A stretch of DNA of 64,000 bases, from the NCBI GenBank assembly GCA_947172415.1, contig OX359198.1, forward strand, positions 4,619,401-4,683,400. Reading direction: 5' to 3'. Below the pieces are notes generated by a model. The model was not told the DNA's origin and made no database searches. It saw nothing but the letters and a program-made list of their open reading frames with translations. This DNA comes from Chondrosia reniformis (taxonomy: Eukaryota > Porifera > Demospongiae > Chondrillida > Chondrillidae). This document shows, piece after piece, positions 29,085 through 55,572 of this stretch. The position numbers were made by a program, and so were the translations under genes. Within the stretch, counting starts at the first letter, position 1, and each line of letters begins with the position of its first letter.

Positions 29085-32000
29085 CTAGTTATCCATTTCT
29101 GTATAGATATCTCCACCTGCAGTTTCACTCTGCTGTGCTTTTGTCAACAGTGCTTGATAGGTTGCTGGTTGTTCCTTTGAAACTGCATAAGATGCAGCAG
29201 TTTGCTGTCTAGTATTTGTGAGCTGCATAACCTTTGGGTTTGTGTTATTCATACGCATGTAGGAACTGCAAGTAAACCAATGGACAGTAAACAGTGTTAC
29301 AACATAGTGGAACTACGTAGATCACACCCTTACTGATGGTCATATCTTCTACTTCCGATGATATAGCCCATTAAACCAAGTACAATCATAAACATGATTG
29401 CTATGGCAGCACCAAACACTGCTGCTATGGTAACAGCAGTAGAGCCATTCTGAGTACTCATATTGTCTGCAGTTTCTGTAGTAGCAGACACTGCTTCAGT
29501 TGGTGCTGCAGCAAAGGTTGTTCCACAATTAGGTGAATAGAGATAAGGAATTTGTAGTCCACAAGGACCAGCTTGAACTGCATATTGCACTCCATTTATT
29601 AACACTGTGGCATTGGGTCCTTTGTTATCCAGCCAAGTTTGTAATGGAGAGATCACATCAGCAGCATTGGCATCTTCATCATATGATGTGATCAAAGCTC
29701 TGAATGTCACAAGATGTTCATTTTGACAAATGACATACTCCCCTTGTACCTTGATGTTGTTTGTAAAGTCGTAGGGTAATTGACAGTGCAGACGAATAGC
29801 ACGATACAGCTGGCCCCTAAACACACTTGCCATGTTGAATGATGGATCCTAATTTGATCATTGGAATAATTACTATTTTGTTGTAATGTGTTAACATGAC
29901 TAATAGAAATACTTACAGTAACTTGACCACAAGTCTGTCCTCTTGGTAATATCAGTGCTAGTTCCACAGTTACTTGGTTACCTAATAGGTTAAAATGGTG
30001 TAGCAAGTTCAAGTTGACTTACTAAGAAATTGTTACCAAGCATATAACCATGTAAAGTATAATAGAAATACTAATAAGAACGTAGCATGGGATTGCTGCA
30101 TATACAAATTTATTACTGTAACATAGTAAAGTATACTAGTCTAATTGTTTTTAGTTTAGGAAACTAGTTTGTCTTACCAACTTCTACAAAGATCTGGTTA
30201 GAGTAAAGGTCTGAAGGAGCATTAGTTCTCAAGACACGGGCATACACTATGAACTGTCCATAATCGTTATACAGTGAGGAAATACTGAATGTATAAGAGA
30301 ATGTGTGTCCTCCATTAGTGATGGCAGTAGATCCATAAGTGAAGCTTGGACAGCTGAGACCACTTGATCCTGTGTATGTAGCATATGTAAAGCATATGTA
30401 CATAGTACTGAGGTAACTGGTGCTCTCCAGTCCTCCATCAAGGTCCCATGAGAATGTTATATCAGTGGCAGTCTGTGCTTCTACATGGAAGTTCTTGACC
30501 AAAGTTGTAACAGCACCTGAATATAGAATAGTGATATATACCAGTGTTATATATTATATAATACACATAAACATATAATGATGATTGAACTAAAGACTTT
30601 TTTGTTGTCCCTTGTTAAAGAACATCTTTTATACACTTAGTTTTCGTCGCCAGACATCAATCGATTCATGGCAAGCGTGATCAGAATAGTGAATGGTTTA
30701 CCTACATAATACCTCTTGGTACAAGTAGATGTCCAATAATGTTAATACTTTAAGTTTGACAATGTGTGGTTATGGGCTTGTGTCTCTCAAAATGCTATAG
30801 TCTGAAATGTATCAAGAATGAATCCTCTTCTCCGATGATATACGCATAGGGCAAACAGGGGATATAATTTAGATTCCAAACTTCACGCATTTGTAACTCA
30901 ACCTATTTGAAACTTCTTGAACAGCCAGTCCATATGTGTGTGCTAATAAATTAATTTCATGGGTTTCAAATTTTAACAGCCCCCTTTCCGGTTTTATACA
31001 TGTTTTCATACCTTTTGAAACCTAGCTGTTCAAAGAGTTTCAAATAGGTTTCATGCCTTCTGAAACCTGACATTTGATCCTGTGGATCAAGCTACATGAA
31101 AAATAATTTTCTGGTATCACAATCGTTTATTATATATTACTTCCATGATCACTTAAATTTGCAGTGGATGGCAATATACTTCTCTCGGGAAAAGAAATGA
31201 ATCTGTTACTTTACACTCTTGCAGTTAGAATGATACTTCATTATCAAATCAAAAATGTACTACACTTCAGTGTAATTTAATCAAGTGGGAGTAGGGTAAA
31301 AATGAAAATGAGGGAGAGGTGAAATCTCGGACACAGACAACAAAGTTGGTTCATCAATGATTAATATGTCTGGCAAGAGTGTTACATGATTAAAGAGTGA
31401 GCATCTTGCAATTGGTCAAAATTAACTCAAGCATCATTGATCAGAGTTTCTACCTAAAGAGATTGTTCGAGAGCAGTTGATGATAGATTTTTGCAGCTTC
31501 ATCTATAGGATGGTCCTCCAATTTTCCTTATTCATCTTTGGGAAGGATTTATGCAGTACTGGCACCTGGTTAGCTGAATAGTAGTCTATATAGGGCTCCA
31601 ATTTCTATTTTAGTGTATTCAGCATGAAATCTTATTTATTATTGTGACCATGGCTTACAAAGTAAGCCAACTACTAGTTCCTAGTTAAGGGACAACACAT
31701 GTATATAGTTTAGTATAGTTTGATACTAGATCTAGAAGCTAGACTAAGACTACATGTAGACATACAGTTCGTTCAGAGTTTAATTGACCGTACGAGTAAC
31801 CTGTTCTGACTCCGATCGCCCTTAATTAGCCAAACTTCGTATAAGATAAATTTCATACCCGTTTTCTGTGCTGAAATATTAGAGTGTGACCGCAAATTGG
31901 ACCGTAACAAAAACGGACTCCTCGGCCTCGGGGGTGCGTTTTTGGGGTCCGTTTTTGGCCAAGAAGTGTAAGGCCAAAAACGGACCCCTGCCAATAGTGG

Positions 32001-32569
32001 GTTGAGAGGTGTGCGTTCATGGTCAGAGGGGTTTCGTTTTTTGCAAAGCGCGCAGCGTGGGGGTCCGTTTTTGGAAGCGGCATCCGTGCTGAATATACCA
32101 AGTAAGACCCTTTTTGGATGGGGTGCGAATTTTGCGTGACAGTAATTGATTCAGCTCTACCGATGAACACTATTATACATTGCACAGTCTACTTTCTATT
32201 TTCTGAACATTTAAGTAAATCTACTACATGTATGTATTAACGTAAATCGTCTATGTTTTTTAACAAATTAAAGAATCTGAAGCAGGTCCTGGCTTAGTCA
32301 CCGTTGAACGTTAGCTACAATAATCTCTAAGAGGATTTACTCGCAATTATTAAGCGATGGCAGTAATTATAAATCTATGGCCAATTAAATTGAGTACCCT
32401 ACTTTATGTTAGGTGAATATATAATAGAATATACGAACGAAAACCTTTTTAGTCTGTCCTTATTTGTTCTATAGCTGCTTGGTGACAGTATCAGCTTACC
32501 TAAAGCTGTGGTTGTCACAAAAAGCAATAAAATTGCCAAAAGCAGTACTTCAGATCGTTTAGTACCCAT
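29085..32569 (-). CDS. Receptor B: FN3-like / SEA-like type I receptor with YxxM tail
   Basis: Exons 32500-32569, 30178-30516, 29917-29981, 29334-29848, 29085-29265; 1170 nt, 389 aa, phases 1-1-0-2. Residues 1-22 are a signal peptide (MGTKRSEVLLLAILLLF). Residues 24-136 form an FN3-like domain (ITFSWDLDGG, VYARVLRTNAPSDLYSNQ). Residues 137-290 give alternating strands and helices in a SEA-like order: VTVELALILPRG, FRGQLYRAIRLH, EHLVTFRALI, DVISPLQTWL, ATVLINGVQY, then GPCGLQIPYLYSPNC. The membrane helix is near 294-319 (IAAVFGAAIAIMFMIVLGL). The tail has YMRM and IYTEMDN, two YxxM motifs. Intron 1 is 2 kb and holds repeats. It is probably a cell-surface receptor; the ligand is unknown. Confidence 0.82.
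31850..32150. mobile_element. GC-rich insert with hairpin, in intron 1 of receptor B
   Basis: Absent from the parallel block at about 15545-15610. It repeats GGGGTCCGTTTTTGG-type units. GGGGTCCGTTTTTGGCC at 31944-31960 pairs perfectly with 31972-31988 across an 11-base loop. No protein is convincing in any frame. Its composition contrasts sharply with the AT-rich surroundings. Confidence 0.5.
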
Positions 32570-33468
32570 ATTTTCTTCTTTCAATGGCTGGTCTTTTATT
32601 ACTTAAGAAGTATAGCTAATAGAATGTATATGCATGCGATGAATTCTTAAGAATCTTAGACCACACCCATATAGACTATAGGCATTATTTATTATGCGGG
32701 TTTCCAGGCAACCACTCAGTCAATTTGTACATAATTTAAATACAAGTACTACTAGTGCCTATTAAACAACTTTGTAGCTTTTAAAATTTCAATTGCCAAA
32801 GGTAATCCTACAAAAGATATTTACTTAGTAAATATCGTTTATGATAAAAACTTTGAATTCCAAATTGAGCCAAATATTGCTGATTTTTGCTTACTTAAAT
32901 GCCACTAGCTACCATTTTATTTACACCATTAAATTGAATATCTTTATATCAACTATGAATATTTTAAGAGACACCCTTCCATAATATTGGGCATGCCCCC
33001 ATGTGTCCTATATGTACCTCTATGATGATATGCATAGTTGGGACCAAAGTGCAAACTCTTCTTTTGTAAACATTTACACAATAATACATTTTTAGCTAAT
33101 AGAGTAAGTTGTCCATAACCACTGAAGTTAGTTATAATTTTTATATATAATCTATATTATTATAAATATATTTTTAAGTTTGTCACATCATTGTCAGAGA
33201 GTACAGTAGTAAGGGAAGGGGCAAAAATCATGGACACCCCCTAGTCAATGTATTATCAAGTAACACCTCGTAAATAGCAATGCAGTGACTTTTGGTTACA
33301 TTCAACTATTTGCAGTCATATATATACGTTTTTCTGTATCTTTCATGATCACTCTCTTGTTTTGATACTGTTCAAGAAGTTTCTAATATGTTTTGTGCCA
33401 TATGAAATCTGAAATTTGATCCTGTGTTTGCCACTCACAGTGAAACTGAAGGTTGTTACAGTGTAATG

Positions 33469-34210
33469 TTATGGTAAATATTGTTGTAACCATATACCCA
33501 TCCTTGAAGTGGTGTTGTCCCTTCTTCTTCTTCTTCTTACAATGAACACTAAGTCTTGGTAAATTTGAATAGCAAGTACAGCTGAGAGCACAAGTATTAG
33601 CAGGATACCTAGAAATGCTACTGCAATGGTAGTGCCATTATGGACTTGGATGGGATGAGGTTGTGATAAACCACAGAATGTTTCTCTCACACTGTTTATT
33701 GATCTACATGGTCCAGTACAATTTTCAGTTCCATAATTATATAAGTTGCTGTGGGTTTAGTCTGAGAGATAGGCGAAGAGTATGTAAAACTGCTAGCAAC
33801 ATGTAAGAACTTATCCATAGACTTTTTAACTAAGGTTAAACTTTCCTCTAGTATAATTACACTTAGTCTATTAAGTACCATTACATAAGACCGTCAGTTA
33901 TAAGAATTATATAGTCCAAGAAATGATCGCTGGCATATTAAATGTGAAATAAAACCTACCTGCACCCAGCCAGAATGTACTAATAACAAAACAAAACAAA
34001 AATTATGTTGCTACTTATGTGTAATAGTGGCAAAAATATAATAGCCAATATCTGCAACATTCAAGTAATAAAATAAAAGAAATCTGGTTTTGACACTACA
34101 AAAATCTGCTTGGAATAAAGTCTGAAGGAGCATTAGTTCTCAAGACACTATGAGCATATACTGTCCATGCATAATTGCTAGACAGTGAGAAAATACTGAT
34201 TGTTTAGGAA
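33469..34210 (-). pseudogene. Receptor remnant: membrane exon, exon 3 and FN3-like exon end
   Basis: 33469-33735 matches the receptor A membrane exon (GTTIAVAFLGILLILVLSAV). 33735-33800 resembles its third exon. 34078-34210 matches the end of exon 2 (SVLRTNAPSD-like). It is colinear with 16845-17440. No usable full frame exists. Confidence 0.6.
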
Positions 34211-34339
34211 TGCGTGTCAGTACAGTCACTTTAAGTATTTAGTTCATGTATCTGCTAGTGTGCCTATACACCCTTTGCCTATATATATATAGACCTATGC
34301 ATATATATGTGCATGCCCTTGAAGTAATAAGAAGTCTTT

Positions 34340-35490
34340 ATTACAATCATGAAATTTTAGCATAGTATTTAGATTTTTTAAGGTTAAACACTTCGAACTC
34401 TATAGTATAGTATACTTTGCACAAGCCTTCTGCTTTCTTTCTGAGGAAGAAGTACATGTAGCATTGTGGTAATTTGATCTGTTACTATATACGTATAATG
34501 TAGGCTTTCTGGGCACAATGTTAGGATTCTCTTATAACCACAGCATCTGGTAGTTGCATGGCCTTGATTATCTTCCTGTATTTCTAATGCCGTCCTTAAA
34601 TTGAATTGAGATGATCCAGCAAAGCACTCCGGTATCCATTTCCATGTAACAAAAAGGCTTTATCTACATACCACAAACACAGACTGGTAGTTCTTTGTAA
34701 CTGAGGTGATGATAAAATTCTATAAGATTCTATTAATTGGGAAAGATAAAGATATACCCATATACGTATACCCTATGTATAGCCCCTTCTATTTGTATAT
34801 AACAGTGGTTCATAGGAGATGGTTTCAAACTAGAAGAGTGGTTGAGTACTCCTTATAGCAATAGTCTGTAGTAGTGCATGGTGGATATGGTTACATGACT
34901 AATGGAAGGATTTTGTCTAAAGTAGAGATTTGGAGATGAAATGGAATGAAAGCTTGAGCATTATAATAAAGCTATACTATTTCTATTGCTTTTGTTAAAT
35001 GTCGAATTTGTCTTATCTATTATAGATATGACATTGTCTAGATCCAACCACAACTTCTTTAAAAATAATAATGTTTAACTTAATTAGTGGTCTCTTTACT
35101 TTTTAGTTATATATATACTTGTGCGAAATTTGATAATAAATATAACACTGAAAGTATAATACTAATGTAGGAATTCCAATTAGTGATACAATTTCACTTG
35201 TTTATCCACTGTAAACTCTGTTTTCAATTTTGTAAGGTTTCTAGAAAATTTGTTTAATGTTACTAGTATAACTAACACTTTACACATAAACACAGTTGTA
35301 CAGGTTATTTATGCTATACATAATTCGATTGCAATCGGTGGACATGTTTGCTACAGAGTGTTTTCATGATTCATCTATGCTGTACAACAGCTATTTACCA
35401 CTGTATGTATGTAGTTATATACATGCACTATGTAAAAGTAAGGTTAATGACTCCTTCAAACCAAATGTTTTCAAAGTGTGATGCAATAAA
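34340..35490. other. Intergenic stretch below receptor C
   Basis: Contains sequence shared with 18660-20230 and with 38120-38690 (the receptor D flank). No gene is seen. AT-rich with scattered microsatellite-like TATA runs. Confidence 0.4.
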
Positions 35491-35493
35491 GTC

Positions 35494-37394
35494 CTAGGTA
35501 TCCATTTCTGTATAGATTTCACCACCCTGCATATCTGTATATCTAATAGCTTCAGCTCCACAGGTTTTTTGCAACGCTGTTTGGTAGCGCAGAGGTTGTT
35601 CCTTTGAAATCGGAACTGATGCAGCAGTTGTCTTCCTAGCCTGACCCTGCACAGACTGACTCACCCTTGGATTAGTGTTATTCGAACTCACATAGTCACT
35701 TTAAATGACAAATATATAAATGGGATTATAAGTATAGTGTCACACATTAAATGAAATGTTATGGAGCCAGTTTATGTATACCTGTTAGCAAATCTTCTAC
35801 TTCCTATGATGTAGCCCATTAAACCAAGTACAATCATAAACATGATTGCTATGACAGCACCAAACACTGCTGCTATGGTAACAGCAGTAGAGGATGAGTT
35901 ATTCTGAGTACTCACAGCTTCTGTAGTAGCAGATACTGCTTCGGTTGGTGCTGCAGTAAAGGTTGTTCCACAGTGAGGTGAATAGAGATAAGGAATTTGA
36001 AGTCCACAGGGACCAGCTTGAACTGAATATTGCACTCCATTTATTAACACTGTGGCATTGGGTCCTTTGTTATCCAACCAAGTTTGCAATGGAGAGATCA
36101 CATCAGCAGCATTGGCATTTTCATCAACTGATGTGATCAAAGCTCTGAATGTCACAAGATGTTCATTTTGACAAAAGGCATATTCCCCTTGTGCCTTGAT
36201 GTTGTTTGTGAAGTCGTAAGGTAATTGGCAGTGAAGCCGAATAGCACGATACAGCTGACCCCTAAACACACTTGCCATGTATCTATCCTAATTTAGTAAT
36301 AAGAATATATAATATTTGTTAAAAAGGAATTCATAATGTCAAGTGTTGATAAGAATATTGAGACTTACAGTAACTTGACCACAAGTCTGTCCTCTTGGTA
36401 ATATCAGTGCTAGTTCCACAGTTACTTGATTACCTAAGGAGATTAAATGTGTAGCAAGCTCAAGTTGACTTGCTATGTATAATTGTTGCAAAAATATACG
36501 TACGTATCTGTAACATTCAGGTTACAAAGTAAGAGAAATACGGGTTTGACTGTGTCTTACCAACTTCTACAAAGATCTGGTTAGAATAAAGGTCTGAAGG
36601 TGCAGTACTTCTAGTGACACGAGCATACACTATGTACTGTCCATTATCGTTAACCAGTGAGGAAATACTGAATGTATAAGAGAATGTGTGTCCTCCATTT
36701 GTGATGGCAGTAGATCCATAAGTGAAGCTTGGACAGTAGTGATAACCTGATCCTGTGTATGTAGCATATGTAAAGCATATGTACATAGTACTGAGGTAAC
36801 TAGTACTCTCCAGTCCTCCATCAAGATCCCATGAGAATGTTATATCAGTGGCAGTTTGTGCTTCTACATGGAAGTTTTTGACCAAAGTTGTAACAGCATC
36901 TGAATAAAGGAAAGTGACAAGTGAATGAATATTGGTGTTAATCTAGAATACTGTAGTGTACTCTTTAAGTGAATAATAGCCTAGTCGTTTCAATCATTGA
37001 TCGTGACTATATACGTATATATGACTCCATTTTACAAACTGTATACCACTAAGTATGTATACTTGTTCACCGACAAGTAGCGTGTAGTGTGTGTGACATT
37101 AGTGAATGAATACTTTGAGAATGTGCAATTAGAGTTGAATAGCCTGAGTAGTTTTATTTTAAAATGGTATAATATTTATTCACAACAATTAAAGAGAAAG
37201 AGTTCCTGGAAACTTAAATCTGATTTATAAGATAACCCATATTTACCAAATTCTATATACAAATGTAAAACCTATTTATCTGTTGATAGCTGAAACATTA
37301 TTTGTTTGATGGTTGTTTTAGGTTACGTACCTGAAGCTGTGGTTGTTGCATAAAGCAGCAGAATTGCCAGAATCAATCTTCTTTTAGTACCCAT
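35494..37394 (-). CDS. Receptor C: FN3-like / SEA-like type I receptor with two YxxM motifs
   Basis: Exons 37331-37394, 36561-36899, 36369-36433, 35782-36287, 35494-35698; 1179 nt, 392 aa. Signal peptide MGTKRRLILAILLLYATTTA. FN3-like residues 22-134, with STAPS where receptors B and D have TNAPS. The SEA-like region carries Cys in YAFCQNE and GPCGLQIPYLYSPHC. Asn-linked sites (NNSSS) lie just outside the membrane helix (about 295-317, AAVFGAVIAIMFMIVLGLMG). The 68-residue tail ends RYTDMQGGEIYTEMDT: two YxxM motifs nine residues apart. Receptor D, about 3.2 kb away, is a tandem duplicate including introns. The start is chosen at the ATG opening the signal peptide; the upstream sequence lacks coding signal. 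Confidence 0.87.
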
Positions 37395-37774
37395 TTTTCT
37401 TTGAAAGGTTTTAGTAACTGATTTTGCAATTCTTATCTCTTAGAGCTCACAATGTAACAGCGACACATTTGTTATTTTATATATAGGCATTCCCAAACCA
37501 CACCCTTTAACTGTAAGAATTGTATACATAGTTGTGGCTCAAAAGAAAACCTTTATGTATATATCCTGTAAACCTTATATACGTACTTAGCACTATTAAA
37601 TAATTTAAATGAGGTTTGTATATATACATCATATACAAACTTCATTGCTATATATATAGACACTTTTCCTTCAGGTCCTCATGCAGTAATTATATATATA
37701 TATATAAGAAATGTATTAGCTACATAAGTAACTTAATAATACTAGTTAGTGAAATTACATAACACATATACACC

Positions 37775-37956
37775 ATCTTTGTAAAGGTTCATCTTTCGAC
37801 TTTGGGAGCGTCTAGAGACGAAGTGACGAAGACCCCCAGGATTGAAACGTTTGGCAGAAAGAAGAATTGAAAAAACTGCGTCTCTAGACGCTCCCAAAGT
37901 CGAAAGATGAACCTTTACAAAGATAAGTTCGACGCAGTTAGAAGAAATCCTAATTC
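37775..37956 (+). mobile_element. 182-bp hammerhead-containing short element (retrozyme-like)
   Basis: Flanked by a 12-bp direct repeat CACATATACACC (37763-37774 and 37957-37968). The equivalent site beside receptor D (about 40950-40980) has a single, uninterrupted copy, so the insertion is proven by comparison. Perfect 46-bp inverted arms 37775-37820 and 37879-37924 enclose a loop with TGACGAAGACCCCCAGGATT then GAAACG, a hammerhead-like core. The 3' end AAGTTCGACGCAGTTAGAAG recurs in other copies. There is no coding capacity. Confidence 0.72.
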
Positions 37957-38688
37957 CACATATACACCAGTTGTAATTGTACATTCACATATTGTCATTA
38001 TATCCAATGCTGATATAGCATCCTTTAAATTGCTTTTACTGATGTAATTTTCACCGTTTAATACAATATGTATACGTATGTTGCATAATACTTGTCTTTA
38101 TATACGTAGTTTAAAATTAGAGATTTGGAGATGGAATGGAATGAAAGCTTGAGCATTATATATAATAAAGCTATACTATTTCTATTGCTTTGTTAAATGT
38201 CGAATTTGTCATATATATCTATCTATATATATATCTATATATGACATTGTCTAGATCCAACCTCAACTTCTTAATATTTAACTTAATTAGTAGTCTCTTT
38301 ACTTTTTAGTTATACTTGTGCGAAATTTGATAATAAATATAACACTGAAAGTATAGTACTAATGTAGGAATTCCAATTAGTGATACAATTTCACTTGTTT
38401 ATCCACTATAAACTCTGTTTTCAATTTTGTAAGGCTTCTAGAAAATTTGTTTAATTATACAGTATAACTAACACTTACACATTAACACAGTTGTATAGGT
38501 TATTTATATACTATACATAATTCGATTGCAATCGGTGGACATGTTTGCTACAGAGTGTTTTCATGATTCATCTTTGTTGTACAACAGCTATTTACCACTG
38601 TATGTATGTAGTTATATACATGCACTATGTAAAGTAAGGTTAATGACTCCTTCAAACCAAATGTTTTCAAAGTGTGATGCATAAAGTC

Positions 38689-40622
38689 CTAGGTATCCAT
38701 TTCTGTATAGATTTCACCACCCTGCATATCTGTATATCTAATAGCTTCAGTTCCACAGGTTTTTTGCAACGCTGTTTGGTAGCGCAGAGGTTGTTCCTTT
38801 GAAATCGGAACTGATGCAGCAGTTGTCTTCCTAGCCTGACCCTGCACAGACTGACTCACCCTTGGATTAGTGTTATTCGAACTCACATAGTCACTTTAAA
38901 TGACAAATATATAAATGGGATTATAAGTATAGTGTCACACATTAAATGAAATGTTATGGAGCCAGTTTATGTATACCTGTTAGCAAATCTTCTACTTCCT
39001 ATGATGTAGCCCATTAAACCAAGTACAATCATAAACATGATTGCTATGACAGCACCAAACACTGCTGCTATGGTAACAGCAGTAGAGGATGAGTTATTCT
39101 GAGTACTCATAGCTTCTGTAGCTTCTGTAGTAGCAGATACTGCTTCAGTTGGCGCTGCAGTAAAGGTTGTTCCACAGTGAGGTGAATAGAGATAAGGAAT
39201 TTGTAGTCCACAGGGACCACCTTGAACTGAATATTGCACTCCATTTATTAACACTGTGGCATTGGGTCCTTTGTTATCCAACCAAGTTTGTAATGGAGAG
39301 ATCACATCAGCAGCATTGGCATTTTCATCAACTGATGTGATCAAAGCTCTGAATGTCACAAGATGTTCATTTTGACAAATGACATATTCCCCTTGTGCCT
39401 TGATGTTGTTTGTAAAGTCGTAGGGTAATTGACAGTGCAGACGAATAGCACGATACAGCTGACCCCTAAACACACTTACCATGTTGTATGATGGATCCTA
39501 TATAATTTAATCATTCGAATAAATATCAATTATGTTAAAATTTAGCTGTATTGCCTTGACAAGAATAAAGACTTACAGTAACTTGACCACAGGTCTGTCC
39601 TCTTGGTAATATCAATGCTAGTTCCACAGTTACTTGGTTACCTAATAAGATAAAATGGTGTAGCAAGGTCAAGTTGACTTGCTATGTGTATAATTGTTGC
39701 AAAAATATACGTATCTGTAACATTCAGGTTACAAAGTAAGAGAAATACGGTTTTGACTGTATCTTACCAACTTCTACAAAGATCTGGTTAGAATAAAGGT
39801 CTGAAGGAGCATTAGTTCTCAAGACACGGGCATACACTATGAACTGTCCATTATCGTTAACCAGTGAGAAAATACTGAATGTATAAGAGAATGTGTGTCC
39901 TCCATTTGTGATGGCAGTAGATCCATAAGTGAAGCTTGGACAGCTTTGATAACCTGATCCTGTGTATGTAGCATATGTAAAGCATATGTACATAGTACTG
40001 AGGTAACTAGTACTCTCCAGTCCTCCATCAAGGTCCCATGAGAATGTTATATCAGTGGCAGTCTGTGCTTCTACATGGAAGTTCTTGACCAAAGTTGTAA
40101 CAGCATCTGAATAAAAGAAAGTGACAAAAAATCGAGTGAATGAATATTGGTGTTGATCTAGAATATCAGAGAATATTGTACTGTACTCTTTAAGTGAAAA
40201 TAACCTAGTCGTTTCAATCATTGATCGTGACTATATATGTACATATTACATACTGTATACCACTAGGTACGTATATACGTATACTTGTTCACCGACAAGT
40301 AGTGTGTAGTGTGTATGACATCAGTGAATGAATACTTTGAGAATGTGCAATTAGAGTTGAATAGCCTGAGTAGTTTTATTTTAAAATGATATAATATTTA
40401 TTCACAACAATAATTATTAAAGAGAAAGAGTTCCTGGAAATTTATATCTGATTTATAAGATAACCCGTATTTACCAAATTCTATATACAAATGTAAAACC
40501 TATTTATCTGTTGATAGCTGAAACATTATTTGTTTGATGGTTGTTTTAGGTTACGTACCTGAAGCTGTGGTTGTTGCATAAAGCAGCAGAATTGCCAGAA
40601 TCAATCTTCTTTTAGTACCCAT
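38689..40622 (-). CDS. Receptor D: tandem paralogue of receptor C
   Basis: Exons 40559-40622, 39768-40106, 39577-39641, 38977-39497, 38689-38893; 1194 nt, 397 aa. Signal exon and tail exon are almost identical to receptor C, and introns are alignable. Differences cluster in the ectodomain: the FN3-like end (VLRTNAPSD) and the start of exon 4 (DPSYNMVSVFRG, EYVICQNE) match receptor B instead. The stalk has an extra ATEA-type unit. The membrane helix (about 300-322) and the YTDM/YTEM tail are as in C. Function as for receptor C, by family. Confidence 0.87.
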
Positions 40623-41109
40623 TTTTCTTTGAAAGGTTTTAGTAACTGATTTTGCAATTCTTATCTCTTAGAGCTCACAATGTAATAATATATAGCAACA
40701 CATTTGTGATTTTATAGGCATTCCCAAACCACACCCTTTAACTGTAAGAATTGTATACATAGTTGTGGCTCAAAAGAAAACCTCTACGTATGTATATATC
40801 CTGTAAACCTTATATACTTAGCACTATTAAATAATTTACTTTTAGTTAAATGAGGTTTGTATACAAACTTCATTACTAGACACTTTTCCTTCAGGTCCCC
40901 ATGCAGTACAGAATGTATTAGCTACATAAGTGACTTAATAATACTAGCTAGTGAAATTACATAACACATATACATCAGTTGTAATTGTACATTCACATAT
41001 TGTCATTACATCCAATGCTGATACAGCATCCTTTAAATTGCTGTTACTTATTTAATTTTCACCGTTTAATACAATATATGTTGCTTTATAATACTTGTAT
41101 TTATATATA

Positions 41110-41860: not shown

Positions 41861-41867
41861 TTTTCAG

Positions 41868-42802: not shown

Positions 42803-42803
<1 letters not shown>

Positions 42804-44406
42804 CTGGTCTCCAGCCTGTCATCCCAATTTAGAGTGTTCTACCTCGACGATGGCACAATCGGTGGGAGTTTGGAGGACATTAAAGCGGACTTATGGAAAA
42901 TTGAGGACCAGGGAAAAGCCTTAGGATTAAACGTGGACAAGTCTGAAGTGGTGTCTCATTGTGAGTCCGCAGTTCACCCCCTCTTTTCCACCTTTTCAGG
43001 CCTGCAGTATGTACACGCTACCCATGCCATCCAGTTGGGCTCCCCTTTGGGGAGAGAGGCTCTACATGTCTGCATTGAGGAACAAATTCATCAGCTGACA
43101 GTGATGGGGGATCGCCTATGTCACCTCCAAATGCACGATGCCATTACCATCCTGCGGCACTCTCTCTCCATCCCGAAGCTCCTACACACCTTACGTACAT
43201 CACCTGCCTATTCTTCACCCTCTCTAGGGTCATGGGACCACCATTTGAAGTCCATCGTGTCTAGGATCACCAACATTGATTTTGATCAAGGTGACTCATG
43301 GCTCCAAGCAACTCTCCCCGTGAAATTAGGCGGGCTTGGGTTCCGAAGTGCCTCCATCCTTGCACCGTCCGCCTTCCTGGCATCTGCTGATGGGGCCTCG
43401 GAACTAATGCAGCAACTCCTCCCTGACCATCTGTCCACCATCCCATACCCTGACAGGGAACTGGCTTTGTCTGGGTGGAAACAAGTACTACCGGAGGACA
43501 CACCCGTCCCTTCTGCCACAAATTGACAGAAGTCTTGGGACCAGCCAGTTACCCAGCACATGTTTGACATCCTCCTGGACCATTGTACGGATGAAATCTC
43601 AAGATCCCGGTTGCTGGGCGCCGGCTCACCTGAGTCTGGTGCATGGTTGAATGCCCCGCCGATCTCTTCACTGGGCCTCCGTATGTCAAACGACGCCATC
43701 CGTATTGCCATCGGCCTCAGAGTGGGTGCCCCCATATGCCTACCCCATACCTGCGGCTCCTGTGGAAGGCCTGTTGACAACTTTGGCCTTCACGGTTTAA
43801 GCTGCCGGTCAAGCCAAGGGAGAATCCCCCGCCACCAGATGCTGAATAACATCATCTATCGCTCACTGGCTTCGGCTAACATCTCCAGCAGACTCGAACC
43901 ATCGGGTCTTTACAGAGCAGATGGGAACCGCCCAGACGGTATCACCCTTGTTCCATGGTCGGCGGGGAAATTCCTGGTGTGGGACGCTACATGTGTAGAT
44001 TCTTTCTGCGACTCCCGCAAACGAGCATCGGCAAGGGAAGCAGGAGGTGCAGCGGCTCTAGCAGAGAAGGACAAGGCGAGAAAGTACGCACATCTGGACA
44101 GGTCCTACGTATTCCAACCGCTAGCAGTGGAGACCATAGGGTCAATGGGCCCAGACTCGTTGAGCTTTCTACGCGAATTGGGCCGCAGGCTGAAGTCAGC
44201 CACGGGAGAGCCCCAGTCCTTCTCTTACTTACTTCAGCGACTCTCCGTGGCCATCCAGATGGGGAACTCCGCCTCTGTGCTGGGCACTCTGGAGTCTGGA
44301 GTTGAATGTCCAGTCCATTGACCAATAAGGTTGCATGATTCCATATATATTTTCATGTTATTATCATTATTATTCATTTATTGTAAATTTAAATTTTATG
44401 TTAAGG
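42803..44406 (+). mobile_element. Non-LTR retroelement 1: RT end, CCHC finger, candidate nuclease
   Basis: 5'-truncated inside the RT: FYLDDGTIGGSLED is the catalytic block, followed by HDAITILRHSLSIPKLLH and GGLGFRSASILAPSAFLAS. One in-frame TGA at 43524-43526 separates the RT half from the C-terminal half, which continues in the same frame to 44321. That half has a C-x2-C-x7-H-x4-C knuckle (CGSCGRPVDNFGLHGLSC) and then RPDGITLVPW with FLVWDATCVDSF, which resembles the restriction-like endonuclease placement in R2/R4-type elements. The end abuts (TAA)n. Much more GC-rich than the host sequence. Confidence 0.72.
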
Positions 44407-46440
<2,034 letters not shown>

Positions 46441-46441
46441 G

Positions 46442-46515
46442 GCATGGATGTTGACCGCCTAGCCACACATGTTCTGAGCTCAGAACATGTGTGGCTAGGC
46501 GGTCAACATCCATGC
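46442..46515. repeat. Perfect 74-bp palindrome ending element 2
   Basis: Arms of 37 bp (46442-46478 and 46479-46515) are exact inverted copies meeting at GAGCTC with no spacer. The left arm is element 2 coding sequence (GMDVDRLATH), so the right arm is a fold-back copy. DNA ends healed by self-priming could produce this, as could an assembly or cloning artefact. Confidence 0.9.
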
Positions 46516-46789
46516 ATCTCTGCCCTTCTGATTTTATTTTGAATATATATACTCTGTTGCATTAAAAATTAATTTTACAAACTGTAAAGTGGGACATTTT
46601 TCAAGGATTTCATTCATATACATATACTATATACATGCTAGTGCTTACTCCTAGATTTTAGGCCCTCATTAGATGGACTAGTACTCTGATGCAATCTTAG
46701 AGGTAACTGTCATATTTACTTATCCAGTGAAATAGATCCATGCAAGAAAGACAGTGAAAAGGAGAAAGCATTGTTAGTAAATGTAGTGC

Positions 46790-47270
46790 AATATGCGACT
46801 CAAACTGGTCCTCATGCACCTCACTGTGGAACAACCTTTATTGCAGCATCATGGTGCAGCAGTAAAGCAGCAGAGTAGTAGCAGAAACTGCAGAAAATAT
46901 GAATACTCAGTTTGGTGCTGCTATAGCAATCATGTTTATGATTGTACTTGGTTTAATGGGCTATATATATCAAATTGACTATATATGTGAGTTTCAATCA
47001 CACTAATCCAAGGGTGAGTCAGACTGTGCAGGGTCAGGCTAGGATGACAACTGCTGCATCAGTTCTGGAACAACCTCTGTGCTACTAAACAGCGGTGCAA
47101 TAAACACGCATGCACAGAGGTGAAGCTATATGATATCAGATATGTAGGGTGGTGAAATGTATATATACCCATGGATACCTATATAATATAAGACTTTAAA
47201 TTTATTACACAACAATTTGAAAACATTTGGTTTGCAAACAGTCATTGACCATACTATATGTAGTGCATGC
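46790..47270 (+). pseudogene. Inverted receptor remnant: SEA-like end, membrane helix, tail
   Basis: Unlike the B-F genes it lies on the plus strand. CCTCACTGTGGAACAACC, then GCAATCATGTTTATGATTGT with ACTTGGTTTAATGGGCTAT, is the membrane exon. CCAAGGGTGAGTCAGACTGT and the following bases are the tail exon of the C/D type. Frames are broken throughout. Confidence 0.7.
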
Positions 47271-47985
47271 AGCATCTTTGAAATGCAAGCAATATAGTAC
47301 CACTACCTACAAAATTGATGCAATAATTGGTGAAAGCTAGAGTACTAGTATAATTATAAATGTAACATAAGACTAAAAGTAAGCATTGCCATAAAACACA
47401 CAAAGGTAAGTCTAAGTGGGGATTTCATAATCAGATGCTAGGGAATGAATTAAGAAGGAGAGTAGACCTGCATGCATGCATGGATTCACATGCAAAGTGC
47501 AATTTGACCAACTAGACATCTCAAATTTCTCTATATTGAATTAAATACAAAGCAAAGAAAAAGTATAATATAGACACACACCTGAAACACAGGGAGGTTT
47601 ATGCATGGATGTACGTATAGAATCTGATAATATATATGTTGCAAAGCTCAATTAGATATGCATGTATATAATACGTATAGTCAGGTGATCATGACCAGAT
47701 GCTATTATTATATATATATTTAAAACATCAGACTACCCAAAGTTTATAAATTGTTTCTTCCTCTCAATGCCAAAGCCGTAAATCCATAAACAAGGACTAA
47801 CTGGGTTCTTCAAACCTAGGATGCTCCTAATAAAAGTACGTGTGTATGTGTATACGTACCTATCAAATTAAATTTATTATTTGCAGCAGGAGAGGGGAAA
47901 CATGAATGCCTGGTCATTTGGAGCTTAAAACAGAACCCTATCATAAATATATATAGTATAATAGCTTTCATATAATGTACACATG
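47270..47985. other. Gene-free spacer
   Basis: No coding exon or clear repeat recognised. AT-rich. Confidence 0.4.
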
Positions 47986-48170
47986 CAGGATCAAATATCA
48001 GGTTTCAAAAGGTATGAAAGTATGTATATAAAACTTGGAAAGGGGACTGTTGAAAATTTGAAACCTGTGAAATTAATCTATTAGCACATACTTGAGCACC
48101 CTCTGAAACCTGGCTGTTCAAGATGTTTCAAATAGTTTTCATGCCATTTGAAACCTGAAAATTAATCCTG
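47986..48170. mobile_element. 185-bp MITE with about 30-bp terminal inverted repeats
   Basis: It opens CAGGATCAAATATCAGGTTT and closes with AAACCTGAAAATTAATCCTG, inverted copies with few mismatches. Partial copies of the same family are at 30905-31082, 7385-7443, 16690-16766, 21783-21844 and 33358-33428. No coding capacity. Confidence 0.65.
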
Positions 48171-48623
48171 TGACTTACTGTTTGCCACGCAGGCTGGATT
48201 GCTATATAACCATACATATGTAACAGTTACCAGTATAAATGTCCCATATGTATCACATATGTACGTATATCCTGTACAAATCAAATTATGTATCCCATAT
48301 ACTTATCACATATATACCGATTCCATGCTTATCCCATGCGGATCACATTCTTATCATACATGCCCTTGAAAATTAGTTAAATCAATCAGTCATATTGAAA
48401 TATTAAAATGGGGGAGCCCTTTTTAGCAATCCATGTATATGTATGTTTTCGTTTCTTATAAAATTGAAAGTCTTCATGAATAGTAATTGTAAGTGAGTAT
48501 AGCAGATTTGTATATATATAATATGCAATTCATAAACAGAAAGCCATGTGAAACTAGCCTAATTTCATAGATCTTTTGCCATCTTTAGCATGCAACTGTA
48601 ACACAAAAAACTATACTATGTAG

Positions 48624-51574
48624 TTAGAGATCTACTTCCTCATTGGTTGTTAGGCCCCCAAAATTAAGCTTATCGTTGTCTGTAGATGCAGCATATGTTA
48701 CTTTGTCAGTTTTTCTGTCATTCCTACATGAATAAATACACATACATACATAGGTATAGGATACTTTACATTAAAAAATAATACATGCACCGTGACCAAA
48801 TTGATTCTTATAGCAGTTGTGTTACCACTGCTATGTACGTACGTATATTTCGCAAACACATATACAGCTATCAGAGTATGTGCAGCCTTTCACTTTCTTC
48901 ATCTAATGAATAATGTACAAGAAAAAGCCAACACACCATTTTCCTACATGCTGTGCCCCTATATTCTGTAAAAAAGCATATAGGGAAACTAAACCTGGAG
49001 AGAGCTTTGGATAAAGATACAGGAGTCTTTTCTTTCATCTTCTTCTCCACTGGGTCAGACAGTTGCTTCTGGGAATTCCACCCCCCATCAGTGATCCTGG
49101 GAGTCTTTGTCTTTTTCTTTATCTTGATCTTTTGTGAATCCTTGGCTCTCTATGCTAAATCTAGGGGCCTTGTATACGTACACAATTTTTGTGCCAAAAG
49201 TTGCATAAGGTTTTAACTAAAACATAATGATGAAATAATTTAATGAAAGGAATGTAAGTCGAATAATATTTTATGAATTAAATCTTTAGTAATGTAGCTT
49301 GTACAGGCAAAACAGACTTAACACAACTATTACAAGTAGGACAAATTACATAAATCTACCTTTAGGTCTTATAGTAGTAACATTTCTTTGAAGTGGGGTA
49401 ACACAAGACAGTACTTCAGCATACTAGCTACTTTTTGCTTATACTTCATTCTAACTAGAGGTTGCTGGGATAGGAACAAGTTAACTAAAAAATGGCCACC
49501 TATATATGTATATGAAATTTATAATCCAGTCACAAGTAACTTTTAAGCTATCATCAAACTTACAGTGATGTGATTTAAAGCACACATATGCAGTATAATC
49601 AGTCATCTCAGTTAATCCATACAACAGCCATTTACAGTAACGTGTGTCCGTAACTTATAACAGTTACTACATGTGTGCAGTGATGTTTTAACCCTCTGTT
49701 CTACTTTTATGCTAATAGAATAAATCATTTTTCATGATAGCAGTCACCCAAATGATGAACTAAGGGACATGCCAGCTATTTTGAACTCTATTACAGATAG
49801 TAGATGGTTTTGTTTGACATTTAATCAATCACTATTAAAGGATTGGTTGGCCTTAGTTTGGTGTACACATGTGTCACAGACCACAAAGAGAAAGGGGGGG
49901 GGGGGTAGGGTTACATCTGCTTGGGAGCAGGTGTAATCCAACCCAATTCCTGTGGGACATGTTTAGCAATGTGCTATGTTAACTGTCCACCAGGTGATAC
50001 ATCCCCTAGTGGCTGATTGTTTGTATACATACCAGACTACTGATGAATTTAAATTTGTGATGTCATCTGCTAAGTGTCATTAATGTGTGTGACTCACTTT
50101 CTAGTTCCTATTATGTATCCTAGTAGTCCGATGATGCAGACAAGCATAACTATAATGATGGATCCCAATGTGGCTGCAACTGCTGTAGCTGCATAGGAGT
50201 CATTGCCCTCACTGGCTAGCTGCTGGGTTTGAGCAGATGGCACACCAATGGTAAAATTGGCTATGGTTGTTGTCCTAATATCCGTTTCTGTTTCAGTTCT
50301 AGTTGTCGTCCTAATATCTGTACTTATTTCAGTTTTTGTTGCCGTTCTAATATCTGTTGCTGTGTCAGTTTTGGTTGTAGTCCTAATATCTGTGGCTGTA
50401 GCAGTGGAAACACTTGTAGAAATGGAAGTAGCTGTTTCAGTGTTGACCTGTGTAACTGTTCGCTCAAATAGAGAAGTACGAATCTCGGTGTTTCTAACAG
50501 TAACAACATGTACAGAAAAAGATGTCTCTGTAGACGTAGTAGATACTGTAATACTCCCTGCAGCCTGAGTAGAGGTTACTGTTTCTGTTGAAATGGAAGT
50601 TTCAGTGCTAAATGCTGTTACTGTTTCAGTTGTTGCTGATATTACTGCAGAAATGGCAGTTTCTGTAATAACTGATGTTCTAGTTGAAACAGAGGTTTCT
50701 GTTACAGAGACAGTAGCTGTTCTAGTCACAGTGGGAGCAGCACCTATAGTACTACAAGATGTAGATGTAGTGTTTACTGAGCAGAATGGTGCATAGTAGG
50801 AAGGTATTCTCAGCCCACATGGTCCTTCTGCTAATGGATACAGTCTATTGTTGTCTAGATTGTAAAAGGATTTTACAACAGTTTCATTACGGAGAAGTTG
50901 CTGGAATGGTTGAATGATATCAACAACTCTGTAACTAGAACTAGTATCAATCAGAGCTCTGAAAGTTACAAATTCATTCACTTGACAGACGGCATATTGA
51001 TGCCTAACAACCAGTAATCGAACAAAATCATATGGAAGGCCAGTCAGACGAAATAAACGATATAGTTCTGTAGCCATTCGTTCAACAAATGTTGTGGATG
51101 CATAATTCTATAATAGAAAAATTGAAAATAGGTTCTAAATTATTACATTTGCATATAAAAATACGTATATATATAATATATTTACTGTAATTGCCACTTT
51201 TAGTAAAATTAGTACTTACCACAGCTCCCAAGCACGTTTCACCACTGGATAACAAGATCTTTAGCTCAATAGCAACCAGATTTCCTGTGAAATAAATAAA
51301 AAATTGCAAGCTCTAGAAAACATCAAACACTATTACTAATATAAATCCATAGTTACAAAATTTTCAATTTGCTATAGTACTATATATAGCTTATTCATCT
51401 TATTATATGCCTACATATTATAAATGGAGCAGGGAGACTGATGAAGACTGCACAATGAAAGAATGATTGACATATTTATACCTAATCAAGCTATACATAA
51501 TTATCATATGTATAGTGACTCTTGAATCCTGGCTTGACCTAGTGCATTTTTACCATGTGTTACTTAAAGAAAGT

Positions 51575-51616
<42 letters not shown>

Positions 51617-52277
51617 GTAATAGTAATAGTAATAGTAATAATAATAATAACTAAAAATATAGGTGTGCTTGTGAAATTCTTACCAAGTTCAGTGTAGATT
51701 TGCTCAGAGTAGATTGTAGTTGGACTTGTGCCTCTAATTATTCTCATCCACATCAACATTTGTCCATAGCCAAGAAAATCACTTAGGCTGCGCGTGATAC
51801 TGAACGTTGTTCCACTCTTACTTATTGTATTGCTTGCAATAGTATCGTAAGATCCGAGTGATGACGGCGATGTCGTTCTACCACTTAGGTAATGAAGATA
51901 AACCGTGTTTATGCTTTCATTAAGGCCACTAGAATATTCCCATGAGAAAGTAGCATCTGACTCGGTTACAGAGACTATGCGAAAGTTGGTAACTCCTGTT
52001 TCCACAGCACCTGATCCAAATAAAAGAAGGAGCTCTTTACACATATCACTTCTATCACTCGTATAAATCGAGACTACTTAGACAATCAAGGAAAGAAACT
52101 AATAAAAGGCCTTAGAAAACAAAAGTACTTGATTAGCTACACAGATGGAACTTCTATAGTTCCACGCTAAATGATACTACTTTCATAGCATGCATTATAG
52201 TTTTATACTATACAGTATAACTTACCATGCACTGCACAAGTTAAAACCAGGAGGCTAAACAAACTAAAGGTTTCCAT
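48624..52277 (-). CDS. Receptor E: type I receptor with Thr/Ser-rich repeat stalk
   Basis: Exons 52226-52277, 51684-52010, 51220-51284, 50098-51107, 48624-48723; 1554 nt, 517 aa, phases 1-1-0-2 as in B-D. Signal peptide METFSLFSLLVLTCAVH. FN3-like residues 18-126 (ATFSWEYSSG, RGTSPTTIYSEQIYTELG). SEA-like block with LVAIELKILLSSGETC, NEFVTFRALI and GPCGLRIPSYYAPFC. A long Thr/Ser-rich stalk includes a degenerate 12-residue repeat (TATDIRTTTKTD) about four times. Membrane helix near 454-480. The exon could stop at TGA after GTRK, but a perfect GTGAGT donor in the family phase joins it to a tail exon reading DKVTYAASTDNDKL and ending EEVDL. The last intron is 1.4 kb. There is no YxxM, so signalling probably differs from B-D. 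Confidence 0.8.
48980..49216 (+). pseudogene. Inverted, frame-broken copy of an exon of the 56302-59281 gene
   Basis: TTCTTCTCCACTGGGTCAGA and the following 110 bases match the minus-strand exon 57989-58112 (SASLLLHWARQLFLGIPPF). A one-base shift changes the frame, giving a hydrophobic but different reading (VILGVFVFFFILIFCESLAL). It sits in the last intron of receptor E. Confidence 0.6.
49217..50097 (-). other. Part of the last intron of receptor E
   Basis: No exon recognised. A run of 13 G at about 49894-49906 is the only notable feature. Confidence 0.5.
51580..51650. repeat. (TAA)n/(TAG)n microsatellite in intron 2 of receptor E
   Basis: A TAA tract with a central block of TAG units, just beyond the donor at 51682-51683. 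Confidence 0.9.
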
Positions 52278-53228
52278 TTAGTAGTATTTCAGTTTTAGAG
52301 CATTCAGATGTCTTCTCTGATCATGCTCTGATACATGCAATCAGGAAATTCTCATTTGCTTTAACAATGAATATGCTTACGAACTCCATGAATAACATTA
52401 AGTTGTAATAACATTTATTAAACTTTGCCATTTAGACTGCAAAACGCAGCCAAACGGGAATCGCCGACTCGTGGGTATCGATTTGGCGTTACAAGCTGTG
52501 CGCTTGCAGTTTCACAAGTGACAGTGCTGGTTTATTTGAAATGTATGGCTGATACTTAAGATGTTGGTCATATCTTATAGTCTTATCTGTGCATTATGGC
52601 TTGATCAACATCATGCACAAATTAACAGTTAAGAAAATCAATGATTTCAAAATTTTCCCTATAATAAACCCCTCAGACCATTTCATTATTTCTCTTCTTG
52701 TATATTCCATTTCTCTTCACCTATTTTATATGCTACCCTATCCTCCAAAATACCTTTCAGCCATTTTCCTGTATATATGTATGTCTGTTGAATTGAATTT
52801 TTCATGACGTGGTAAGATTTGAGTTTACCAAAAGTCACTAAGTTTTGTATAATGTATGTAAAAACATCCATTTTTATAAAGCACACGTAAATACCCCCCA
52901 CTTAAGATGCAGCAGTACTACGTATGATGATCTATACTCTATGTGACTTGTAAACCAAACCTGGTTGGGCCATCTTTTTTCTGATTTCAGTTCTTTGTAT
53001 GGCATGTCACAATATTGTATGTATGTCTGTTGAATTGAATTTTTTCATGACATGTAGTAAGATTTGAGTTTATAATGGATGGACAATTCATTGTCTAAAT
53101 ACATATCAAAGATTGGCATAATATTGTATATGTTACTATATATATCAAAAGCAGATGAATGTATATACGTATATAGGCTATCCTTGGATTGTTTTAATTT
53201 TAAAAACTAAATTTAGTGGAGTTATATA
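52278..53228. other. Spacer between receptors E and F
   Basis: A GC-richer patch at about 52435-52530, about 160-250 bases upstream of the receptor E start, could be promoter sequence. No exon is seen. Confidence 0.35.
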
Positions 53229-55572
53229 CTAAAAATCGGCTCCATCATCTTCAGGCAGTGGTTGAGTACTAAGTTTGTCACTATCTTGGACATTATATGA
53301 TACTTTGTCAGAGTTTGATTTGCTCCTGTGTATGTAAAACATATATATAAACAGTATCCTAAAAGCATGTGATTTATATGGGCAAAGTATGTACATTTAG
53401 AGGAATTGAATAAGCCACTCCAAAGAGGTTCTATATACAAAAGCTGTAAATAAAAGCAATGATGTGATCATTCTCAAACTTCATGAAGAAGGAAAAACAA
53501 AAAATGCAATTGCTAGGAATAATTAAACCTAGGACAGCTGATTATGACCACCAGTGCTCTGCCACTGAGCTATCATTGTCACAGCAATTAATGCTCCCTT
53601 CATGTTTCCCCCTTATGCTCTTTCTATATAAATATGTGATAAGTAATCAGTCCCCATTCACCCCAATTATAGTGGAGATTTCAATTTCTCAGAACAAACT
53701 GTTAATCAAAGGCCTACATCCTAAATAAGCTATATATTATGTACGTCAATAGTAAAATAATAATATTATAAACTGCAAACAGAGTGGATATATACGTGCA
53801 TACATAAAGTATTACCTCTGACTCACTTTCTAGTTCCTATAATGTATCCTAGTAGTCCGATGATGCAGACAAGCATAACTATAATGATGGATCCCAATGT
53901 GGCTGCAACTGCTGTAGCTGCATAGGAGTCATTGCCCTCACTGGCTAGCTGCTGGGTTTGAGCAGATGGCTGAGTGGTTACAGTAGTGGTAGAAGTAACA
54001 GTTGTTTCTATAAAGGAGGTACGAATTTCAGTGTTACTAACAGTAACAACATGGATGGAAAAGGATATTTCTGTTGAAGTAGATGTAGTTGTTACAGATT
54101 TAGATATTCCTGTTACATCTGTCCCTCCACATGTTTCAGTGACAGTGACAGTAATCATTTCTACATTTGTCGTGGTTACAGTATGAGATGGATTCGTAGG
54201 ACAAGTGGTAGATGCTGCATTAACTGAGCAGAAAGGTGCATAGAGTGAAGGTATTCTTAGTCCACATGGTCCTTCAGCTATGGGATATACTTTGTTATTT
54301 CCAGAGTAAATAAAGTTTCTTGTTAATGTTTCATTTCCAAGTAATTTCCCAAGTGGTTCTAGGATGTCTTCAGTGCTGTAACTTAGAGATGCAGTTCCAA
54401 TAAGTGCTCGAAGGGTTATGAAATCATTCGTCTGACAGGTGGCATAGTGATAGATTATATCTATATCTCTACTAAGGTCAAAAGGAAGACGACTCAAGCG
54501 TAATAAACGATTGATTTGGGAAGCCATTTGATCCACAAACGTTGTAGTAGTAGCATAATTCTAAAATAACAAATAAATTTGAAAACAGTAAATTAACATG
54601 TCTAAAGTAATTTAATGGTAACAACAACTCACCAGAGTATCACGACATAATTCATTTTCAGCCAAATATACCTTTAATTCAATTGCAATTTGGTATCCTG
54701 CATAAATGTTTATTGAGTCAATTATCATCAATTTTAATTCGTAATAAGGATAGTCCCTTCAGCTCAAAAGGGCTGATCTACCAGGGAGTCCTATATATTT
54801 TATGCACTTGTTGTATAATATGTGTGCATGTGTGTATAATTTACCAGGCTAGTTGCAGCTGGACTGGTCCACTCATTATACTTTGATTACATAAAGTTGC
54901 AATTTTTATCAGTAACAAGGATATATGCTATTAATTAAGAGGAGTCCACTGTCTTACTGTATACATTAATTAACATACATATTTTCTAGCTTTGTATTGT
55001 ATATATCACAGGTGTCTCAATTGGTTAGCAATTATCTTATAAGGGTAGATAGTTTAATGCAAAAGAGCAAGGCCCACTTAAACACTTGCTACTAACATGT
55101 AATGTGCAATGCCACATGTACAATACTAACCAAGCTCAACATATAATTGCTCAGAATAAATGTTTGTTGGAGAGGAGCCCCGCCTGATTCTTATCCATGT
55201 AATAATTTGACCATATGTACTAAAGTCACCAACATCCCGAGTATAAGTGAAATTACTACCACTTTGTATCACTTCATCAAAAGGAATTAAAATGAATATT
55301 CCACTATAATCAGCATCTAGTTCCCTGCTTTGTACATAGTGTAGATAGTAGGCTGTTATATCAGCATCCAAGCCGTTTGGAATGTTCCAGGAAAATGTTA
55401 CCTGAGTTGTGGTGATGGAGGTAACCCCAAAGTTGGTGATTTTAGGTTCTATAACACCTGCAATGTGGAGCATGAATAATCGTTTAACCATATCTAACAA
55501 AAAATGTCACTCCTCACCTTGTGTTGTACAGGCGAGAGAGAGCAAAGAAACGACTACGGAAAATATATCCAT
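53229..55572 (-). CDS. Receptor F: paralogue of receptor E with shorter stalk
   Basis: Exons 55518-55572, 55131-55457, 54633-54697, 53827-54560, 53229-53325; 1278 nt, 425 aa. Signal peptide MDIFSVVVSLLSLACTTQ. FN3-like residues 19-127 (VTFSWNIPNG, RRGSSPTNIYSEQLYVELG). SEA-like block: IAIELKVYLAENELC, NDFITLRALIG, EGPCGLRIPSLYAPFC. The Thr/Ser stalk is about 90 residues shorter than in E. Membrane and juxtamembrane DNA is almost identical to receptor E, while the ectodomains differ widely. The tail exon, reached by a GTGAGT donor in the same phase, reads DKVSYNVQDSDKLS and ends EDDGADF. Function as for receptor E. Confidence 0.8.
53505..53588 (-). repeat. tRNA-derived SINE head
   Basis: The minus strand reads TAGCTCAGTGGCAGAGCACT (A box) and later CCTAGGTTTAATTATTCC (B box region). 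It lies within the last intron of receptor F. The T arm is imperfect, so this is a SINE rather than a tRNA gene. Same family as 19873-19950. Confidence 0.62.

Follow-up and report, generated by a model that had tools for sequence, protein, structure and literature searches.

Which membrane receptors allow sponges to tell self from non-self, or symbionts from strangers, is an open question, for which the literature consulted offers as candidates the aggregation factors and several broad families of pattern-recognition molecules. The question arises at a locus of Chondrosia reniformis, a sponge described as rich in microbes for which a chromosome assembly and public RNA-seq exist (PMC12181767). 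Within a stretch of 64,000 nucleotides of chromosome 10 (contig OX359198.1, positions 4,619,401 to 4,683,400; hereafter the window), five tandem genes, B to F, had been proposed from the DNA alone to form a new family of type I receptors with a candidate role in self/non-self or microbe recognition. The assembly searched comprised 117,379,552 bases in 15 contigs; excerpts of the genome report describe odChoReni1.1 as 117.37 Mb in 14 chromosomes plus a mitochondrial genome, with chromosomes 1, 3 and 10 measuring 10.41, 9.42 and 7.66 Mb (PMC12181767). Here, we describe a compact set of 13 such genes, in which one loop is a candidate for ligand binding and a tail motif a candidate for signalling, and for which a lineage-restricted family of single-pass recognition receptors is, judged from sequence, the best explanation (probability roughly 0.5).

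Genes B to F were rebuilt exon by exon from the window sequence as follows (exon lengths in brackets).

29085..32569, minus strand: gene B, 389 aa; exons 32569-32500, 30516-30178, 29981-29917, 29848-29334, 29265-29085 (70/339/65/515/181 nt)
35494..37394, minus strand: gene C, 392 aa; exons 37394-37331, 36899-36561, 36433-36369, 36287-35782, 35698-35494 (64/339/65/506/205 nt)
38689..40622, minus strand: gene D, 397 aa, with an AlphaFold2 ectodomain model; exons 40622-40559, 40106-39768, 39641-39577, 39497-38977, 38893-38689 (64/339/65/521/205 nt)
48624..52277, minus strand: gene E, 517 aa, with a long Ser/Thr-rich stalk; exons 52277-52226, 52010-51684, 51284-51220, 51107-50098, 48723-48624 (52/327/65/1010/100 nt)
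53229..55572, minus strand: gene F, 425 aa; exons 55572-55518, 55457-55131, 54697-54633, 54560-53827, 53325-53229 (55/327/65/734/97 nt)

All five genes were open from ATG to stop on the minus strand and shared the five-exon plan that had been claimed for them, with intron phases 1-1-0-2 and every intron bounded by GT..AG; the range originally given for the family ended exactly at the stop codon of B (29085) and the ATG of F (55572). In each gene the exons encode, in order, a signal peptide (in B ~2 kb upstream of exon 2), an FN3 domain, a 65-nt piece, a membrane-proximal domain with stalk and membrane helix, and a tail. The strong divergence noted between B-D and E-F was borne out by protein identities to D of 96% for C and 84% for B, as against 36% for E and 28% for F, and the cysteine pattern GPCGL(Q/R)IP..Y.P.C was kept in all five.

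Searched against the genome, the membrane-proximal exon of D gave 13 near-full-length and three partial matches. The former correspond to 13 genes with the five-exon plan in three clusters: the five on chromosome 10, five on the plus strand of chromosome 1 (C1a to C1e, 7.342-7.398 Mb, where the three partial matches also lie) and three on the plus strand of chromosome 3 (C3a to C3c, 1.386-1.400 Mb). Because the eight further genes, on two other chromosomes, repeat the plan (signal and FN3 exons, then a short one of 62-74 nt, then exon 4 and a tail exon, with phases 1-1-0-2 throughout), it is more than a product of chance. The reading frame was open in all 13 models and the splice sites were complete in 12; the exception, C1d, has AT in place of the exon-3 acceptor AG and may be a dead gene. 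The C1 genes have an unusual splice donor at exon 4 (gttcta). GPCGL.IP....P.C was retained in the alignment of all 13 proteins. Used as queries, the FN3 exon of C1b recovered all 13 of these loci together with one remnant in two pieces, and that of E found 12 of the 13 (C1c absent) plus one marginal place elsewhere (E 0.27). Trees of either domain separated the chromosome-10 genes from those on chromosomes 1 and 3 (support 100/99 and 98/96), and the chromosome-1 genes were not resolved as a single group.

The predicted protein begins with a signal peptide, followed by a single FN3 domain, a membrane-proximal domain, one helix that spans the membrane and finally the tail, which agrees with the type I membrane architecture first proposed. 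Pfam scans of 4 + 7 proteins, with matches listed to E 10, gave only weak matches, such as fn3 (PF00041), which matched five of seven members (best E 1e-4; two scores, 20.2 and 17.5, under the cut-off of 25) and gave no match in D. Structure comparison placed the predicted domain in the FN3 fold, a beta sandwich, with FN3 entries as best matches and antibody entries lower; Ig-like Pfam names were likewise weak (ObR_Ig E 0.21, Ig_SIBA-E_2nd E 0.055). The membrane-proximal domain, which adjoins the membrane, had been called SEA-like. SEA-domain membrane proteins include mucins and dystroglycan, and GSxxx is the SEA cleavage motif, although it is absent from many SEA domains. In the AlphaFold2 model of the D ectodomain the domain folds as beta-alpha-beta-beta-alpha-beta, a predicted SEA-like, ferredoxin-like topology that the sponge proteins would share with SEA proteins, likewise placed before a single membrane helix. 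The name agrees with the predicted topology, but family membership found no support: Pfam SEA had no match up to E 10 in the 4 proteins or the 7 members, no SEA structure was among the matches listed, and no GSxxx site was seen by eye in this domain of the 13-protein alignment. The conserved GPCGL.IP....P.C is a further difference.

Among close paralogs, changes in the FN3 exon were concentrated in three of the segments that link strands (C to E, E-F and F-G). Within both the chromosome-1 set and the B-D set, one short block differed by up to 41% where the preceding sequence was 95-99% identical. In the window, this block is located as follows.

30350..30376, minus strand: variable FN3 loop block of B, YTGSSGLSC
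36733..36759, minus strand: variable FN3 loop block of C, YTGSGYHYC
39940..39966, minus strand: variable FN3 loop block of D, YTGSGYQSC

The sharpest case was the pair C1a/C1d, with 22 differences in the 54 nt of an 18-codon block, 5/123 in the left flank and 0/60 in the next 60 nt. In the chromosome-1 set, the proportion of nonsynonymous differences (pN) was 0.201 in the loops and 0.038 elsewhere. In B/C/D, loop pN was 0.092 compared to 0.014 elsewhere and the proportion of synonymous differences (pS) was 0.049 compared to 0.108, with few changes in total. Circular shifts reached the observed pN contrast in 1 of 108 cases for the chromosome-1 set and 4 of 112 for B/C/D, the unshifted one counted, and the block itself was detected at p <0.003 in 8/10 chromosome-1 pairs and 2/3 B/C/D pairs, which are not independent of one another. 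Pairwise ratios of nonsynonymous to synonymous change (omega) for the FN3 exon were 0.62-1.37 in ten chromosome-1 pairs, 0.46-0.61 in B/C/D and 0.36-0.42 on chromosome 3; those for exon 4 were 0.29-0.71, 0.29-0.61 and 0.39-0.79, respectively. Two loop types occur in the chromosome-1 cluster, SHYFNEHS (C1a/C1c) and YLxFYPSS (C1d/C1e), and FYPSS is also found in C3a, on another chromosome.

At the other end of the protein, the tails of 11 of the 13 genes terminate in (E/D)(I/L)Y(T/S)E(M/L/V)D. Between D and C1b, all eight residues of the motif and the preceding G agree, compared to 5 of 50 over the remaining tail; in ten representative pairs, agreement was 6-8 of 8 in the motif and between 3/48 and 28/43 in the rest. 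A DNA pattern for EIYTEMD occurred eight times in the genome, six times in the chromosome-1 cluster and twice in the chromosome-10 cluster, and in neither control read. Three of the six chromosome-1 copies (7354459, 7364755, 7384148) adjoin incomplete receptor copies. E and F lack the motif, and the one tyrosine in the short tail of each fits neither the EIYTEMD-like motif nor an immunoreceptor tyrosine-based inhibitory motif. As a group, the tails do not fit an immunoreceptor tyrosine-based activation motif (ITAM) or hemITAM, which has L or I at +3: of the 11 tails with the motif, nine have M at this position, one has V and one has L. E and F were identical in two 50-column windows of exon 4 over the membrane segment and 33-80% identical in the windows before it; the contrast between this identity and the strong divergence elsewhere suggests gene conversion of the segment. 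Their DNA (50098-51107 in E, 53827-54560 in F) is near-identical over the membrane segment and strongly different elsewhere.

Searches of ~5.8 billion proteins gave 0 (D alone), 3 and 16 matches and found no relative other than copies resembling these same genes, although distant sponge relatives could escape, since the database reads such DNA without introns. One match, P0003, is a protein from a 608-bp public contig and lies closest to C1b (125/134) and C1d (125/136); in these counts, and in those below, start codons and intron read-through score as mismatches. P0003 reads GRKRYNGNPAGLVK unbroken across the predicted exon 4/5 joint, whereas in the genomic C1 genes exon 4 ends in GRKR, which is separated from YxGNPAGLVK or similar by an intron of ~300 nt. 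No intronless GRKRYxGNP was found in a six-frame scan that covered three regions of the genome. By comparison, P0005, P0006, P0008 and P0009 (open reading frames of contigs of 10.4 and 2.1 Mb) and P0007 (872-bp contig) read KRF into the intron. P0003 ends in LSLIHI, a string that we take to be translated Nextera adapter. Because it reads through the joint without an intron and has this end, P0003 looks like complementary DNA, in which case the C1-type exon 4/5 joint is transcribed and spliced; such transcript evidence was seen for the C1 type and for none of B-F. As for the others, P0004 matched F (232/234), P0001 C3a (142/147), P0002 C3c (144/145), P0008 and P0009 C1a (117/122 and 121/122) and P0005 C1e (122/124), while P0006 and P0007 came no closer to any of the 13 genes than 111/127 and 117/127. 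P0010 is A1's own exon (A1 is described below), P0012, P0013 and P0015 match C1 genes in part, and P0011, P0014 and P0016 look A-type by eye. These public copies look as if they come from this assembly, from other haplotypes, or from further individuals of this species or one very close to it.

A recognition role is indicated by the block of divergence in the FN3 exon in two of three gene sets, the retention of the tyrosine motif in otherwise diverged tails, and the broken copies and remnants, which are present in both the chromosome-10 and chromosome-1 clusters. Under this reading, the FN3 domain would use its C-to-E and E-F loops to bind a variable ligand, which may be microbial surfaces or a molecule from a different individual, while the membrane-proximal domain and stalk would keep it away from the membrane. 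Receptor clustering may then lead to phosphorylation of the tail tyrosine, and the phosphotyrosine may recruit an SH2 protein, so that the motif would act in the manner of immune-receptor motifs that have a single tyrosine. The short-tailed E and F could be non-signalling or opposing partners and the FN3-less A1 and A2 co-receptors or decoys, with diversity presumably arising from duplication, exchange of loops among copies, and selection. In a stronger version, which we regard as improbable, the loop block would be swapped among paralogs and alleles, so that each individual has a repertoire of its own by which self/non-self fusion is decided or microbes are discriminated; the long-tailed members (B-D and the chromosome-1 and -3 genes) would signal, with the short-tailed E and F as partners.

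Several observations weigh against recognition. In the chromosome-1 loops pS was raised as well (0.189 vs 0.043), and this joint rise is compatible with an exchange of old loop versions no less than with selection. The B/C/D loop pattern fits selection for change, and exchange and selection may both have acted, but its ratio stems from only ~8.5 replacement and 1.5 silent changes. The loop excess of C3b/C3c was not significant (35/110 circular shifts), nor was the block in 2/10 chromosome-1 and 1/3 B/C/D pairs; the three loops and the block were picked after viewing the alignment; FN3-exon omega was 0.36-0.61 in the chromosome-3 and B/C/D pairs; the M, L or V at +3 of the motif is also compatible with an AP-2 sorting signal; and the allele-like public copies, which are pieces of exon 4 only, differ by 0-3% there.

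Some of these points would suit clustered adhesion or developmental signalling receptors with no immune or allorecognition role, in which the loops give each paralog a fixed partner. FN3 is common in adhesion receptors, exon 4 looks constrained (omega 0.29-0.79 in 17 pairs) and differs little among allele-like copies; yet protein searches found only copies of these genes, and remnants, a broken copy and a sharp loop block are not what this explanation would lead one to expect; we consider it unlikely, with an appreciable chance nonetheless. The tails allow another view, that of endocytic or scavenger receptors which take up particles or nutrients by means of a Y-x-x-hydrophobic AP-2 sorting signal. 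YTEM, YSEM, YTEL, YTEV and YTDM all match that pattern, and variation at +3 suits it better than it suits a strict phosphoinositide 3-kinase YxxM, but the tails also keep position -2 acidic, position +2 as E and position +4 as D, beyond the needs of a sorting signal, and genes E and F lack the motif; we regard an endocytic role as improbable. About as improbable, and if anything slightly more so, is neutral birth and death, under which the tandem copies would be relaxed or dead in part and patchy gene conversion would make the loop contrast a mosaic effect with no recognition role. The lost acceptor of C1d, the parallel rise of pN and pS in the chromosome-1 loops, patchy intron divergence (C1b/C1c intron 2 0.027, introns 1 and 4 0.101 and 0.158) and the identical membrane segments of E and F all agree with such a history, whereas the 13 open models with 12 complete sets of splice sites, the 8/8 agreement in the tail motif against 5/50 in the remainder, and the excess of pN over pS in the B/C/D loops, albeit from few changes, do not.

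By analogy, the nearest kind to a family of recognition receptors such as this one is that of clustered single-pass recognition receptors, as in the PTC/GRC of Biomphalaria and the Alr of Hydractinia. According to excerpts of the snail report (PMC10875847), the polymorphic transmembrane clusters PTC1 (the Guadeloupe Resistance Complex) and PTC2 likewise group genes for membrane proteins with a single pass, of which some contain FN3, and PTC1 gene 2, listed as FN3 plus TMEM154, ranks with the most diverse receptor-like genes. In the sponge, A1 matches TMEM154 below threshold (E 0.15). The likeness is one of architecture: a ferredoxin-like membrane-proximal domain and an EIYTEMD-like tail are not described in those excerpts, and the snail clusters are reported to be highly diverse between lines and linked to parasite resistance. 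Hydractinia Alr, described in part of its source as a family of 41 members in one complex that serves self/non-self recognition (PMC11999971), differs from the sponge proteins with their one FN3 and ferredoxin-like domain. Sponge aggregation factors also form a gene cluster and are said, in excerpts of one report, to control allorecognition in Amphimedon (PMC10815962), but they are extracellular proteoglycans with Calx-beta, for which none of the 4 + 7 proteins had a Pfam match; the original prediction had likewise set the family apart from them, by their Calx-beta and Wreath domains. SRCR, CTLD and NLR pattern-recognition families are large and variable too in the portion of the Halichondria study available (PMC8242945), but none of these domains was found among the same scanned proteins. 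The combination of FN3, membrane-proximal ferredoxin-like domain and terminal EIYTEMD did not appear among the results listed by the searches made. Excerpts of the genome report mention 17,340 Ensembl genes (PMC12181767), and some of the receptor models may already be among them, unnamed.

The family had been placed inside 29085..55572, which holds for the five genes but not for their relatives and remnants, which also lie outside (4.9-18.2, 25.2 and 26.1 kb) in addition to those between the genes (33.5-34.2 and 46.8-47.1 kb).

4925..6342, minus strand: gene A1, the plan without the FN3 exon; 6342-6279, 6096-6011 (86 nt), 5931-5510, 5210-4925
6797..6895, minus strand: FN3-exon remnant, 78.8% to D over 33 aa
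13513..14338, minus strand: A2, copy of A1; 14338-14275, 14096-14011, 13929-13513; no tail exon in the model
15953..16012, minus strand: copy of B-type signal exon
16864..17049, minus strand: A-type membrane exon remnant with internal stop
17290..17400, minus strand: FN3-exon remnant, E 0.007
18102..18239, minus strand: FN3-exon remnant
25150..25224, minus strand: FN3-exon remnant, 64% over 25 aa
26110..26178, minus strand: copy of B-type signal exon, E 0.005
33469..33756, minus strand: open frame with A-type membrane exon remnant, 78% to A1 over 71 aa
34120..34215, minus strand: FN3-exon remnant
46771..47100, plus strand: inverted remnant of B/D-type exon 4 and tail exon

A1 has four exons with phases 1-0-2 and a tail ending in EEIYTDMD. 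As the FN3 exon is of phase 1-1, a gene can acquire or drop it and stay in frame; A1 represents the FN3-less state. A2 repeats A1 closely, and its frame stops shortly past the membrane segment; there the membrane exon runs into sequence resembling that just past the A1 stop codon, and the A2 tail exon seems to have been deleted. Between A1 and A2, at 10823-12667 on the minus strand, lies a broken reverse transcriptase with a GIY-YIG-like domain (RVT_1 E 8e-5, GIY-YIG E 0.0035, both under the cut-offs), probably a Penelope-like element. Reverse-transcriptase frames at 26554-27564 (RVT_1 E 2.5e-30) and 44528-46057 (2.1e-7 and 1.7e-10), both on the plus strand, are long interspersed nuclear element (LINE)-like elements beside and among the receptor genes.

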